From Gammaproteobacteria bacterium (GTDB taxonomy: Bacteria > Pseudomonadota > Gammaproteobacteria > AKS1), in the NCBI GenBank assembly GCA_027006175.1, contig JALTKS010000025.1, positions 1 through 64,000 on the forward strand: a DNA stretch of 64,000 nt. The letters are read 5' to 3'. The translations under genes and the position numbers were made by a program. Of this stretch, positions 48,696 through 54,576 are shown one piece after another (the first letter of the stretch is position 1; each line of letters opens with the position of its first letter). The notes beneath the pieces are model-generated. The model was not told where the DNA came from and did not search any database. It saw only the letters and a program-made list of their open reading frames with translations.

Positions 48696-50186
48696 TTAGA
48701 AGATGTACGTTAACTGTAGCCCAACACGGTCACCGATGGAATCAGTAACGATGTTAGCATTGCTCGTAAATCTTGGTGCAGCTGCTGCACCGATACCTGT
48801 TGCTGTATCGTAGTCAGTTGGTGCTTCAACATCACGGAATGCATAGTTAAATGTCAGACGTGATTTTTTAGTGAAGTGATAAGTAACACCGAGTGTTGTT
48901 TCATCAATTTCACGTTCTGCGCCTTTGTTGATATTTGCAGATGTTTCGTAGAGACGTTGTTCACGCGCCCAACGAATATCGAACTGCCAATTTTTGTTCA
49001 GGTAGAATGCGTATTCAATTTGGAAAGCTCGTGATTTATTACTTTCATCTGTCGCAAATGAAACACTACCTGGACCAGCGGTTGCGCTACCACGTGCAAC
49101 ACCTGCGGCAGGACCCATGAAGATCATACCTTTTGCATACTCAAGTTCAGCACCGAAACGATGTTTGTATTTAGAACCAAAGAATTTGCCAAGTGCTTTT
49201 ACACCGATACCGTAACGTGTACGGTCAAAGCTTTCATTAGTAGCATCAGTATAGAATTGACGTTTACCACTTTGATGCCAAGCATAGTATTTAACACCGT
49301 TCTTACGTGGACCGCGACCACCTTTAAGGTTCTTTTCGGCTGAAGCATAAAGGTAAAGCTCGTTGTCACCATTAGTATCATTACCACGACTAATCGCTTC
49401 ACCACGACCTACTTTAATCGCGTAGCTTAAGTCCCATGATTTGTTAGCGACTTTAAAGCTATCAAATACCTGGATACCCCAGTCACGTACCGCACTGAAA
49501 CCATAGGCACTGTACTGGGCTGTACCTGACCCGCTTGTTGTTGAACCAGGAGCGTTTGCATTACCTGAATAGAAGTTTTCTAAAACTTGTGTTGCATTGA
49601 AGCTAGTGAATTGAATGAATTCGATTGATGCAACGCCCTGAAACACTTCATCTGATACCGGGTTTTTGAATAAACCAACACGAATGCGTGCGCCTGGTAT
49701 ATGGTTGAAAGTTAAACTTGCATGATCCAATGTCAGAGGACGACGATCTGTGCTGAATTGATTTTGGTTAAATAAACCATCATCAAGTGCAACCATGGCG
49801 AAGTAGTTAATCTTTGATGTGAAGCTGTTTTTCCATGGACCGGAGAAACGACCACGCATACCAACACGAGCACGACGCATGTAGATTTCACTGGTTTCGT
49901 TAAACTCTGGTGTAATTGTGTTAGGAACAGCATATTGACCGTTAGCAACACCATCAGGGAAAAGTGCGCCAGAGCTAGGATTTACAAGTCCTTGTAACTT
50001 ATCACCATTCACCGATGCATCATATGCAGGTTGAATAAATGAGAATAAACGATGGTTAGGTGCTTTCTTCCCTTCCACACCTTGTAGCATGAGCCAGTTG
50101 ACGGCACTGGCAGAGCCAGAGAGCAACAGCCCTGTTGTGCACGCAGCGGCGATGAGGCTGCGCTTAATAGTTGTTGATTTAAACAT
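48696..50186 (-). CDS. Phosphate-selective porin-like outer membrane protein (OprO/OprP family)
   Basis: Start at 50186 (MFKSTTIKR, GGAG upstream). 496 aa with signal peptide (IAAACTTGLLLSGSASA). SEIYMRRARVGMRGRFSG and ALDDGLFNQ... with INYFAMVALDDG match the OprO/P family; the C-terminal strand DRVGLQLTYIF ends in Phe as needed for BAM assembly. Phosphate selectivity cannot be assumed. A strong ECF-type promoter motif (50342-50373, minus) points to control by the divergent sigma factor. Confidence 0.88.
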   Translation of the reverse strand: MFKSTTIKRSLIAAACTTGLLLSGSASAVNWLMLQGVEGKKAPNHRLFSFIQPAYDASVNGDKLQGLVNPSSGALFPDGVANGQYAVPNTITPEFNETSEIYMRRARVGMRGRFSGPWKNSFTSKINYFAMVALDDGLFNQNQFSTDRRPLTLDHASLTFNHIPGARIRVGLFKNPVSDEVFQGVASIEFIQFTSFNATQVLENFYSGNANAPGSTTSGSGTAQYSAYGFSAVRDWGIQVFDSFKVANKSWDLSYAIKVGRGEAISRGNDTNGDNELYLYASAEKNLKGGRGPRKNGVKYYAWHQSGKRQFYTDATNESFDRTRYGIGVKALGKFFGSKYKHRFGAELEYAKGMIFMGPAAGVARGSATAGPGSVSFATDESNKSRAFQIEYAFYLNKNWQFDIRWAREQRLYETSANINKGAEREIDETTLGVTYHFTKKSRLTFNYAFRDVEAPTDYDTATGIGAAAAPRFTSNANIVTDSIGDRVGLQLTYIF

Positions 50187-50341
50187 TAGTTTCTCCAAAT
50201 CGGATGGTATTTTATATATAATTTTTTATAATTATCAGCTATTAATAACTTATATAACAGCCTATTACAAGAACTTTATTATAATTTAGTTTAATCTTTT
50301 CCCTTTTTTAACAAGGGTTTTAAAGACTTTAATCACTTATG

Positions 50342-50373
50342 TAGACGAGAAGGTACCACTGTTTATTCCATTT
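50342..50373 (-). promoter_or_regulatory. Putative ECF-sigma promoter of the porin gene
   Basis: Minus strand: AAATGGAATAA (50373-50363), 15-bp spacer, CGTCTA (50347-50342). It shares the complete 11-bp upstream box and the CGTCTA hexamer with the sigma promoter on the other strand. It implies a leader of about 150 nt before the porin start. Confidence 0.6.
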
Positions 50374-50422
50374 TCATTATTTATATATTTTATGGCTGTA
50401 ATAAGTAGAAAAAACAGAGATG

Positions 50423-50453
50423 AAATGGAATAATTCCCCAGCTTTGTCGTCTA
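50423..50453 (+). promoter_or_regulatory. Putative autoregulatory ECF-sigma promoter
   Basis: Plus strand: AAATGGAATAA (50423-50433), 14-bp spacer, CGTCTA (50448-50453), about 28 bp upstream of the sigma start. A CGTC-type -10 is characteristic of many ECF sigma factors. Confidence 0.6.
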
Positions 50454-50481
50454 TTAATGAGTAGATTGGATAAGAATAATT

Positions 50482-51042
50482 ATGAACCCGTTTGAAGTGC
50501 TATGTAAAAATCGCGAATTTGAACAAGCGTTGACGAAAAGTCGTGAGCGTTTGTACCGAATTGCTTTTGCATGGAGCCATAGCCCGGACATAGCCGATGA
50601 TCTGGTTCAAGAGACTTGTTCCAAGGCACTGCGGCAGCGTAAACAGCTTAGAGATCCCGAATCAATCGGACCGTGGTTGTTCAGAATTATGAAGAACAGT
50701 TGGCATGACCACTTGCGCGGTAAGAAAGAAACGCTTGAATTTGATGAGACGCTGCACATTGATGAGCAAACACCTGAAACGGTCAATTCTCGTTATGAAA
50801 CGGTGCAGCGAGTGAGACAGGCAATGCAGGCTTTGCCGATTGGACAGCGTGAAGTGCTGGCGTTGGTTGATTTAGAGCGCTGCAGTTATGCAGAAGTGGC
50901 AGAAATATTAGAGATTCCAGCGGGTACGGTAATGAGTCGTTTATGCCGAGCCCGGCGACAATTGAAAGAATTATTGCTTGACCAGGCACCATCGCAAAAC
51001 AAGGGTGCTGAAGTAGTATCATTACGGAGAAAGAAGCAGTGA
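50482..51042 (+). CDS. ECF-type RNA polymerase sigma factor
   Basis: 186 aa. Sigma region 2 (RLYRIAFAWSHSPDIADDLVQETCSKAL) with the -10 recognition end, and region 4 (LPIGQREVLALVDLERCSYAEVAEILEIPAGTVMSRLCRARRQL) for -35 recognition; region 3 is absent, as in group IV. The last codon overlaps the anti-sigma-like gene (ATGA type overlap, 4 bp). Likely regulon members: itself and the divergent porin. Confidence 0.93.
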   Translation: MNPFEVLCKNREFEQALTKSRERLYRIAFAWSHSPDIADDLVQETCSKALRQRKQLRDPESIGPWLFRIMKNSWHDHLRGKKETLEFDETLHIDEQTPETVNSRYETVQRVRQAMQALPIGQREVLALVDLERCSYAEVAEILEIPAGTVMSRLCRARRQLKELLLDQAPSQNKGAEVVSLRRKKQ

Positions 51043-51749
51043 ATAAGGCTAACTATTTAATATCAGATGAAGAGTTGAATGCTTTTCTTGATGAACAACT
51101 TGATTCACATGAACGGGATCGCGTATTGGAAGCAATTAATGCTGATACCCGTGTTAATCAACGTATCAATGAACTGCGTTTATTACGCGATATGGTTCAA
51201 CACGCGTATGAGGAACCGCCTCAGCGAGATCGTTTAATCCGTCATGCCTCGAGAACATCTAACTCACGTTGGGCGATTGCCGCTTCTTTTGTGTTATCAC
51301 TCGGTGTTGTGCTGGGCTGGTTTGGTCATCAGGGTGTGGTGGCAGAAAATCAGCTAGCCAATAGCAGTGTGAATGTGCCAGCGAAATTGAGCAATGTCAT
51401 TTTACATTTGTCATCCTCAAACCCTGAAAGAATCAGTGCTGCGTTAGATAAAGCAGAAGAAATGCTGTTAGCGTATAAAGCACAAAATAAGGATTTACGC
51501 CTGGAAGTCATTGCTAATGATGGTGGACTCAACTTAATGAGAAATGATATTTCGTCATTTCAACCACGTATTCAGCAATTGAAAAATAAATATGGCAATG
51601 TTGAATTTCTTGCCTGTGCAAAGGCGATTAAACGACTTCAGGAAAAGGGTGTCGATGTTGAGTTATTGCCTGAGGTAAAAGTGGCACCGTCTGCCTTAAA
51701 ACAAATAATTCAACGTATGCAGGAAGATTGGCGCTATATTAAAGCTTAG
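51039..51749 (+). CDS. Probable transmembrane anti-sigma factor with DsrE-like C-terminal domain
   Basis: 236 aa. The N-terminal 70 residues (SDEELNAFLDEQLDSHERDRVLEAI) resemble the cytoplasmic sigma-binding domain of RsiW/ChrR-type anti-sigma factors, but have no HxxxCxxC zinc motif. One transmembrane helix (AIAASFVLSLGVVLGWFG) follows. Residues about 108-235 look like a DsrE/DsrF fold: NVILHLSSSNPERISAALDKAEEML, LRLEVIANDGGLNL and VEFLACAKAIKRLQEKGVDV, with one Cys at the usual DsrE position. A DsrE domain on the periplasmic side could sense sulfur species. This reading is inference. Confidence 0.75.
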   Translation: MNKANYLISDEELNAFLDEQLDSHERDRVLEAINADTRVNQRINELRLLRDMVQHAYEEPPQRDRLIRHASRTSNSRWAIAASFVLSLGVVLGWFGHQGVVAENQLANSSVNVPAKLSNVILHLSSSNPERISAALDKAEEMLLAYKAQNKDLRLEVIANDGGLNLMRNDISSFQPRIQQLKNKYGNVEFLACAKAIKRLQEKGVDVELLPEVKVAPSALKQIIQRMQEDWRYIKA

Positions 51750-53391: not shown

Positions 53392-54576
53392 ATGATTAAA
53401 CCAATTGGTGCTGACGAACTGAAGCCATTGTTCGTTTACGATACAGATGAACATGCTGCACTCACCAAAGAAGCAGAAGGCTTGCCTTCAGTAGTAATTA
53501 GTTCGGCGGCTGCAGGTAATGCAGTAATGATGGGGGGTGGTTACTTCACACCTTTAACCGGTTACATGAACGTGGCAGATGCCATGGGTTGTGCCGAAAA
53601 CATGAAGACAACCGATGGCAAATTCTTCCCGGTACCGGTATTGAACCTGGTTGAAGATGCGTCTGAAGTACAAGGTGCGGCACGTATTGCCTTACGTGAC
53701 CCGAATGTTGATGGCAATCCAGTGATTGCAATCCAAACAGTTGAAGCCATCGAAGAAGTCTCTGATGCGCAAATGGCAACCATGACCGACAAGGTTTACC
53801 GTACCGATGACATGGAACACCCGGGTGTTGCAGCATTTAACTCAGTCGGTCGTTTTGCTATTTCAGGTCCTATTCAGGTATTAAACTTCAGTTACTTTAT
53901 AACTGACTTCCCGGATACATTCCGTACAGCGGTAGAAATTCGTAATGAAATTTCCGAGCATGGCTGGAATAAAGTGGTGGCTTTCCAAACACGTAACCCA
54001 ATGCATTTGGCACATGAAGAATTGTGTCACATGGCAATGGAACGTTTAGGTTGTGATGGTCTGGTTATTCACATGCTATTAGGTAAGTTGAAGCCAGGTG
54101 ATATTCCTGCTGACGTACGTGATGCGGCGATTCGTAAAATGGTTGAAGTGTACTTCCCGCCAAACAGTGCAATGGTGACTGGTTACGGTTTCGATATGCT
54201 TTATGCCGGTCCTCGTGAAGCGGTACTGCATGCTTACTTCCGCCAGAACATGGGTGCAACACACTTTATTATTGGTCGTGACCATGCCGGTGTGGGTGAC
54301 TACTACGGTGCCTTTGATGCGCAGACTATTTTTGATGACGAAGTACCAGCCGGTGCAATGGAAATCGAAATGTTCATGGCAGATCACACAGCATGGTCCA
54401 AGAAGCTAAACAAAGTCGTTATGATGCGTGAAGTTGATGATCATGAAAAGGATGACTTTGTCTTACTGTCAGGTACCAAGGTGCGTGAAATGTTAGGTAA
54501 TGGTGAAGCGCCACCGAAAGAATTCTCGCGCCCTGAAGTTGCGAAGATTCTGATTGATTACTACTCAAACCTGTAA
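53392..54576 (+). CDS. sat: Sulfate adenylyltransferase (ATP sulfurylase), dissimilatory-type
   Basis: 394 aa homo-oligomeric form, unrelated to CysDN. The substrate-binding motif QTRNPMHLAHEELCH contains the HxxH nucleotide site, and GRDHAGVGDYYGAFDAQ the second conserved loop. In sulfur oxidisers it runs in reverse, making ATP and sulfate from APS and pyrophosphate. No aprAB or dsr genes are in the window, so a role in sulfur oxidation is inferred. Ends with a clear terminator. Confidence 0.94.
   Translation: MIKPIGADELKPLFVYDTDEHAALTKEAEGLPSVVISSAAAGNAVMMGGGYFTPLTGYMNVADAMGCAENMKTTDGKFFPVPVLNLVEDASEVQGAARIALRDPNVDGNPVIAIQTVEAIEEVSDAQMATMTDKVYRTDDMEHPGVAAFNSVGRFAISGPIQVLNFSYFITDFPDTFRTAVEIRNEISEHGWNKVVAFQTRNPMHLAHEELCHMAMERLGCDGLVIHMLLGKLKPGDIPADVRDAAIRKMVEVYFPPNSAMVTGYGFDMLYAGPREAVLHAYFRQNMGATHFIIGRDHAGVGDYYGAFDAQTIFDDEVPAGAMEIEMFMADHTAWSKKLNKVVMMREVDDHEKDDFVLLSGTKVREMLGNGEAPPKEFSRPEVAKILIDYYSNL

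Follow-up and report, generated by a model that had tools for sequence, protein, structure and literature searches.

Sulfite-responsive ECF sigma factors are known from the ECF26 group, which comprises RpoE4/RpoE1 of Sinorhizobium meliloti and SigE of Starkeya novella. These proteins respond to sulfite-generating sulfur compounds and govern a small regulon (PMC3511301, PMC6527743), and the RpoE4/SigE promoter has a -35 box of GGAAT and a -10 box of CGTC (PMC6527743). Control of sox genes by ECF sigma factors has been described in Arcobacter butzleri, where the effect of sigma-2/sigma-7 on the sox genes was measured (PMC3445524). For class I anti-sigma factors, a survey of domains reported that the fused C-terminal domains vary from one group to another and are the probable determinants of the signal (PMC7406223). 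The word DsrE was not found in that survey, and the searched literature held unrelated or separate mentions and no DsrE-bearing anti-sigma factor, an absence on which we base a claim of novelty, with the large main ECF classification excepted as lying outside that search.

The window analyzed here, meaning the whole stretch of 64,000 nucleotides, carries a divergent locus that joins an ECF sigma factor, a DsrE-bearing anti-sigma factor, and a porin in the following arrangement.

48696 to 50186, minus strand: porin gene, divergent from the sigma gene (ORF list)
50342 to 50373, minus strand: predicted ECF promoter of the porin gene, with -35 TGGAATAA and -10 CGTCTA (core GGAATA-N16-CGTC)
50423 to 50453, plus strand: predicted ECF promoter of the sigma/anti-sigma operon (core GGAATA-N15-CGTC)
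50482 to 51042, plus strand: ECF sigma factor gene, 186 aa, regions 2 and 4 (Pfam Sigma70_r4_2, 1e-16; Sigma70_r2, 1.6e-14)
51039 to 51749, plus strand: predicted anti-sigma factor gene with a DsrE domain, 236 aa, GTG start (ORF list and Pfam; full-length relatives exist)

The sigma protein has the ECF layout, with regions 2 and 4 only and a length of 186 aa where about 180 aa are expected, and the GTG start of the anti-sigma gene overlaps the sigma stop by 4 nt. For comparison, we assembled 82 non-redundant full-length anti-sigma ORFs of relatives from fetched loci; in 76 of these, the sigma gene lies directly upstream, so that the anti-sigma gene follows directly 3' of it. The divergent gene encodes an NWLMLQGxE porin of 496 aa with a signal peptide, most likely starting at the ATG at 50186 (the alternative being a TTG at 50198), and porin homologues adjoin the sigma/anti-sigma pair in relatives. 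Because a Pfam search of the porin product gave no match and its model is a low-confidence beta-barrel (pLDDT 56) with general porins as best structural matches, the subtype is left unspecified, and "porin" is the full extent of the claim.

In overall plan, the locus resembles the ECF26 systems in having an ECF sigma factor and a membrane anti-sigma factor in one operon, the same promoter and spacing (the latter also seen in the S. meliloti rpoE4 and sorT promoters), and a small regulon. It differs in that the C-terminal part of the ECF26 anti-sigma factor is of COG5662 type, not DsrE, and in that the ECF26 target is sulfite oxidase, whereas the predicted targets here are a DsrE protein and a porin. 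We regard the DsrE-fusion system as a variant within the known ECF sigma/membrane anti-sigma systems, with an architecture and a putative regulon that are strongly supported by sequence.

The initial annotation had placed mirrored promoter boxes before the sigma and porin genes, and both are present. In their longer form, they read AAATGGAATAA-N14-CGTCTA on the sigma side (50423-50453, plus strand) and AAATGGAATAA-N15-CGTCTA on the porin side (50373-50342, minus strand), and the pattern AAATGGAATAA-N12-17-CGTCTA gave these 2 exact matches in the window versus 0 in 100 dinucleotide shuffles. Outside the boxes, the two sequences are unrelated, as had also been stated: the spacers differ in length (14 nt on the sigma side and 15 nt on the porin side) and share no similarity. 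The promoter at 50423 to 50453 probably confers autoregulation on the sigma/anti-sigma operon. Genome scans for promoters were done by pattern matching, and the genome search for the strict motif that had been suggested at the outset (TGGAATAA-N13-17-CGTCTA) returned just the two divergon sites. Relaxing the -10 box to CGTC added one gene-start site, which is on contig C46 and precedes the gene for a secreted DsrE protein. This gene lies 3' of adk, unlinked to the sigma locus, and has TGGAATAA...CCGTC upstream; the same type of promoter is kept before the secreted DsrE gene in two congeners, where the gene is likewise unlinked to the sigma locus. The strongest argument for a single regulon under the three promoters here is the conservation of this unlinked one. 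The porin promoter, for its part, is kept in two genomes of the same genus (G003 and G002) and in other families. A larger regulon in this genome was considered and rejected: additional GGAATA/TGGAATAA...CGTC sites on contigs C27, C101, C111, C34, and C118 are taken as chance matches because they lie off gene starts and a reversed-pattern control gives similar numbers.

Among 369 genomes sampled from the same class, 66 carry the full-length fusion, spread over 40 families as counted from the anonymous family labels of the genome table. Named relatives with the fusion include Sulfuricella, Sulfurimicrobium, and Acidiferrobacteraceae, Ectothiorhodospiraceae, Chromatiales, and Rhodocyclales records. 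In 299 genomes from across the phylum, no full-length fusion was found outside the class, where the DsrE part alone matches. The promoter has been conserved together with the pair. An exact GGAATA-N15/16-CGTC stands within ~380 bp upstream of the sigma gene in 59 of the 76 relatives with that gene order, versus 0.09 on average and at most 3 in 200 dinucleotide shuffles, with a spacing of 16 in 50 relatives and 15 in 9; 33 of the 76 also have the motif on the other strand, reading towards the divergent gene. Far from occurring at random before unrelated genes, the motif precedes the sigma gene in the majority of independent relatives, and the shuffles of both the window (0 in 100) and the relatives (mean 0.09) rule out chance matches. 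What needed revision in the initial annotation was the form of the motif. Its two sites stand, and relatives share GGAATA-N15/16-CGTC as the core; the longer AAATGGAATAA/CGTCTA version is confined to this species and its nearest relative. By eye, the remaining 17 of the 76 mostly show the same -35 with a GCATC-type -10; with the -35 mostly kept, it is possible that sigma factor and promoter changed together in some lineages.

The anti-sigma factor itself is divided as follows.

51060 to 51209, plus strand: N-terminal anti-sigma-like helical domain, residues 8-57, with three predicted helices and no zinc motif
51267 to 51332, plus strand: one membrane-spanning helix, residues 77-98, with basic residues on its N side (from the sequence and a predicted helix)
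51387 to 51743, plus strand: DsrE domain, predicted to be periplasmic, residues 117-235 (Pfam, PDB sequence match, and Foldseek)
51615 to 51617, plus strand: codon of Cys193, aligned with a cysteine of MTH1491

An AlphaFold2 model built from 33 sequences (pLDDT 85) shows N-terminal helices at 9-16, 22-34, and 36-57 (numbered from residue 2), a long helix at 76-98, and an alpha/beta C-terminal domain. The match of the N-terminal domain to anti-sigma profiles is marginal, which counts against the explanation that we favor below: RseA_N scored E=0.021, below the cut-off, and reached E<=0.01 in 3 of 33 relatives, and zf-HC2 or RseA_N match weakly in a few relatives' N-terminal domains. The lack of a zinc motif had been pointed out initially and holds across the family; Hx3Cx2C occurs in 0 of the 82 relatives, which rules out a zinc anti-sigma factor. 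Residues flanking the membrane helix are basic before it and acidic after it, and by the positive-inside rule we infer that the N terminus is inside and the DsrE domain outside, which suggests a periplasmic location for the latter.

The DsrE-like domain that had been proposed beyond the membrane helix is recovered both by profile and by fold. Pfam DsrE (PF02635) matches residues 133-235 with an E value of 2.1e-8 and 34.8 bits against a curated cut-off of 22.7, and in the structure prediction of 51039-51749, as advised at the outset, the C-terminal domain adopts the DsrE fold. A sequence profile alone matched MTH1491 among PDB sequences (E=3e-17), and Foldseek matched MTH1491 (1L1S; TMt 0.89), ST0148, and the DsrE subunit of DsrEFH (2HY5_A; TMt 0.60). 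Cys193 is invariant in 33 of 33 relatives and is the sole cysteine after the membrane helix in all 33, making it a candidate sulfur-reactive residue. MTH1491 and ST0148, DsrE-like proteins of solved structure, are thus alike in sensor domain sequence and fold, including the aligned cysteine, but stand alone, without fusion to an anti-sigma domain or a membrane helix. RseA-RpoE and the class I anti-sigma factors offer the other likeness, with an N-terminal helical, anti-sigma-like domain without a zinc motif, one membrane helix, a sensor part that is predicted here to be periplasmic, and a gene directly after that of the sigma factor. However, RseA has an RseB-binding periplasmic segment in place of the enzyme-like DsrE domain, and the RseA_N match here falls short of the cut-off.

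Taken as a whole, the explanation that we favor, and hold to be reasonably likely, is an ECF sigma/anti-sigma switch of sulfur-oxidizing Gammaproteobacteria in which a periplasmic DsrE domain serves as the sensor of reduced sulfur. It is in keeping with the sulfur-sensing circuit that had been suggested at the outset. The cytoplasmic N-terminal helices of the anti-sigma factor would hold the sigma factor at the inner membrane, and a reduced or zero-valent sulfur species would react with or bind at Cys193 of the periplasmic DsrE domain. Candidate ligands are thiosulfate-derived sulfane sulfur, polysulfide, persulfide, and possibly sulfite, which might meet Cys193 alone or be delivered by the secreted DsrE protein; another ligand is conceivable since proteins without an assigned function can have DsrE-like folds as well. 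The resulting change would be passed on, either directly or via regulated proteolysis, and the freed sigma factor would then act at GGAATA-N15/16-CGTC promoters of its own operon (autoamplification), the outer-membrane porin, and the secreted DsrE protein.

The neighborhood of the pair in relatives points to a system wider than a local divergon. A secreted DsrE gene and/or a porin gene adjoins the pair in 55 of the 82 loci, the order being DsrE and then porin where both are present in the divergent direction, and the motif recurs upstream of these divergent DsrE/porin genes. Together, these genes form a conserved putative regulon, of which the secreted DsrE protein is the most frequent neighbor and predicted target. 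Furthermore, the congener G002 has two additional paralogous sigma/anti-sigma pairs, one of which lies opposite a gene for a TPR protein; the orthologues of this gene in G001 and G003 have the promoter as well. The TPR-repeat protein has ~475 aa and a signal peptide, with the same promoter in all three (L034 in G002, L053 in G001, and L059 in G003); a full-length version was not found in the genome under study. Some neighbors are not obviously sulfur genes, namely the TPR protein, a secreted protein of 385-423 aa, and whatever is read from a promoter towards rpiA. The secreted DsrE protein is apparently a lipoprotein, with an LSGC motif, in G001 and G003 (L044:7890-8348, L062, and L063), and that of the present genome has a Sec-type signal without a lipobox.

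The same neighborhood invites another reading, namely that the DsrE domain provides a docking site to which the secreted DsrE protein binds, so that the switch would sense the amount or state of that protein, as feedback on sulfur-carrier supply, and no small molecule directly. DsrE-like proteins assemble into oligomers, and such a partner is at hand in the secreted homologue of the sensor domain, which belongs to the putative regulon here too; the domain's relatives MTH1491 and ST0148 also stand alone. However, no DsrE gene lies beside the pair in 32 of the 82 loci (some of which are cut by contig ends), the gene is unlinked in this genome, and the invariant cysteine suggests chemistry at the site. 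We consider docking unlikely.

For sensing of reduced sulfur, the reading that we favor, the co-occurrence with sulfur oxidation is informative. The organism had been described as a probable sulfur oxidizer, and its genome carries both dsrA and soxB. Across the 369 genomes, soxB is found in 64 of 66 with the fusion versus 85 of 303 without it, and soxB or dsrA in 65 of 66 versus 98 of 303; the lone exception comes from a congener whose assembly is 80% complete. Association with soxB gives an odds ratio of 82 for the fusion, 2.9 for the unrelated anti-sigma factor RseA used as a control, and 59 for the fusion within RseA-bearing genomes. This association is partly shared ancestry, which inflates the counts, yet hardly to the difference between 82 and 2.9. 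Gene linkage points the same way. In G268, one strand carries the sigma factor, the anti-sigma factor, a cytochrome c, one ORF without assignment, soxA, and soxB; in G169, the pair is flanked by soxB and a DsrE gene on one side and, on the other, by DsrE, a porin, an ORF resembling a lipoprotein, and a sulfur transporter (PF04143). The sox genes are probably also under the sigma factor in some relatives. This would resemble the ECF control of sox genes by A. butzleri sigma-2/sigma-7, for which no DsrE domain is mentioned and where the effect was measured (PMC3445524); here the link is drawn from sequence. In one locus, the divergent gene beside the pair (L145:4494-6626) encodes metallophosphoesterase and 5'-nucleotidase domains, as found by scanning, and L135:3286-5460 looks alike; both domains of the L145 protein are also seen in SoxB of G268 and G169. 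A single-domain ATP sulfurylase, in keeping with a sulfur oxidizer, is encoded near the divergon (window 53392-54576), and a matching promoter was not seen at that gene.

A further reading is a switch for general envelope stress, or for redox or metal signals, whose frequency in sulfur oxidizers is a coincidence, with the cysteine oxidized or metallated and porin expression as the purpose. Near-exclusive occurrence alongside soxB/dsrA and the linkage to sox and sulfur-transporter genes would then be unexpected; moreover, a distinct RseA-type system is encoded in the genome. Envelope-stress systems typically have porin outputs and an autoregulated pair of ECF sigma factor and membrane anti-sigma factor, a pattern that this locus fits, and there is a single candidate reactive cysteine, but on balance we find this reading quite improbable. 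Plain membership in the sulfite-responsive ECF26 group, with sulfite as the signal, would account for the identical promoter consensus and spacing and for the rpoE4-antisigma-sulfite oxidase locus being, at 36% identity, the best match to the window sigma factor within an S. meliloti record, but it is very unlikely, since a tree with few references and many open forks sets the studied sigma factors apart from four alphaproteobacterial ECF26-like rows, the S. meliloti anti-sigma factor has no DsrE signature, and a sulfite oxidase gene was neither found in the window neighborhood nor noticed in the inspected ORF lists of relatives. The DsrE-fusion system thus appears to work like ECF26, but the tree does not support membership.

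Sensing of reduced sulfur outside the cytoplasm by chemolithotrophic sulfur oxidizers is poorly understood, and the DsrE-fusion switch is a good candidate for it. More tentatively, it might represent a new class of transmembrane sulfur sensor, in which a DsrE sulfur-carrier domain has come to act as an anti-sigma factor's periplasmic receptor and reads zero-valent sulfur via one persulfidable cysteine, with a secreted paralogue as the main regulon product in a sulfur-trafficking feedback loop, across sulfur-oxidizing Gammaproteobacteria and with some lineages wired to the sox operon; this is plausible, though somewhat less likely than not. Because the system combines a defined sensor and promoter with one candidate residue and a small regulon in about 40 sampled families, the question of sulfur sensing becomes testable, either with the module rebuilt in a heterologous host or by knockout in a cultivated relative such as Sulfuricella. 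In addition, the promoter code could be used to find sulfur-related genes in uncultured genomes, such as those for secreted DsrE proteins and porins of the NWLMLQGxE type.

Several minor observations concern the promoters of individual relatives. GCATC stands in place of CGTC upstream of the sigma gene in L032, L035, L039, L040, L139, L148, L152, L157, and L164. In G001, an assembly that is 89% complete, the promoters are present and a full-length anti-sigma factor was not detected. A reverse-strand GGAATA-CGTC promoter reads into the gap towards rpiA in L083, L092, L095, and L133, with no recognized gene at its start; it may possibly serve a small unannotated gene or an RNA. Finally, the sigma/anti-sigma pair is duplicated in tandem in L067 and L074 (G113), and every copy has a DsrE neighbor and a GGAATA-CGTC promoter of its own.
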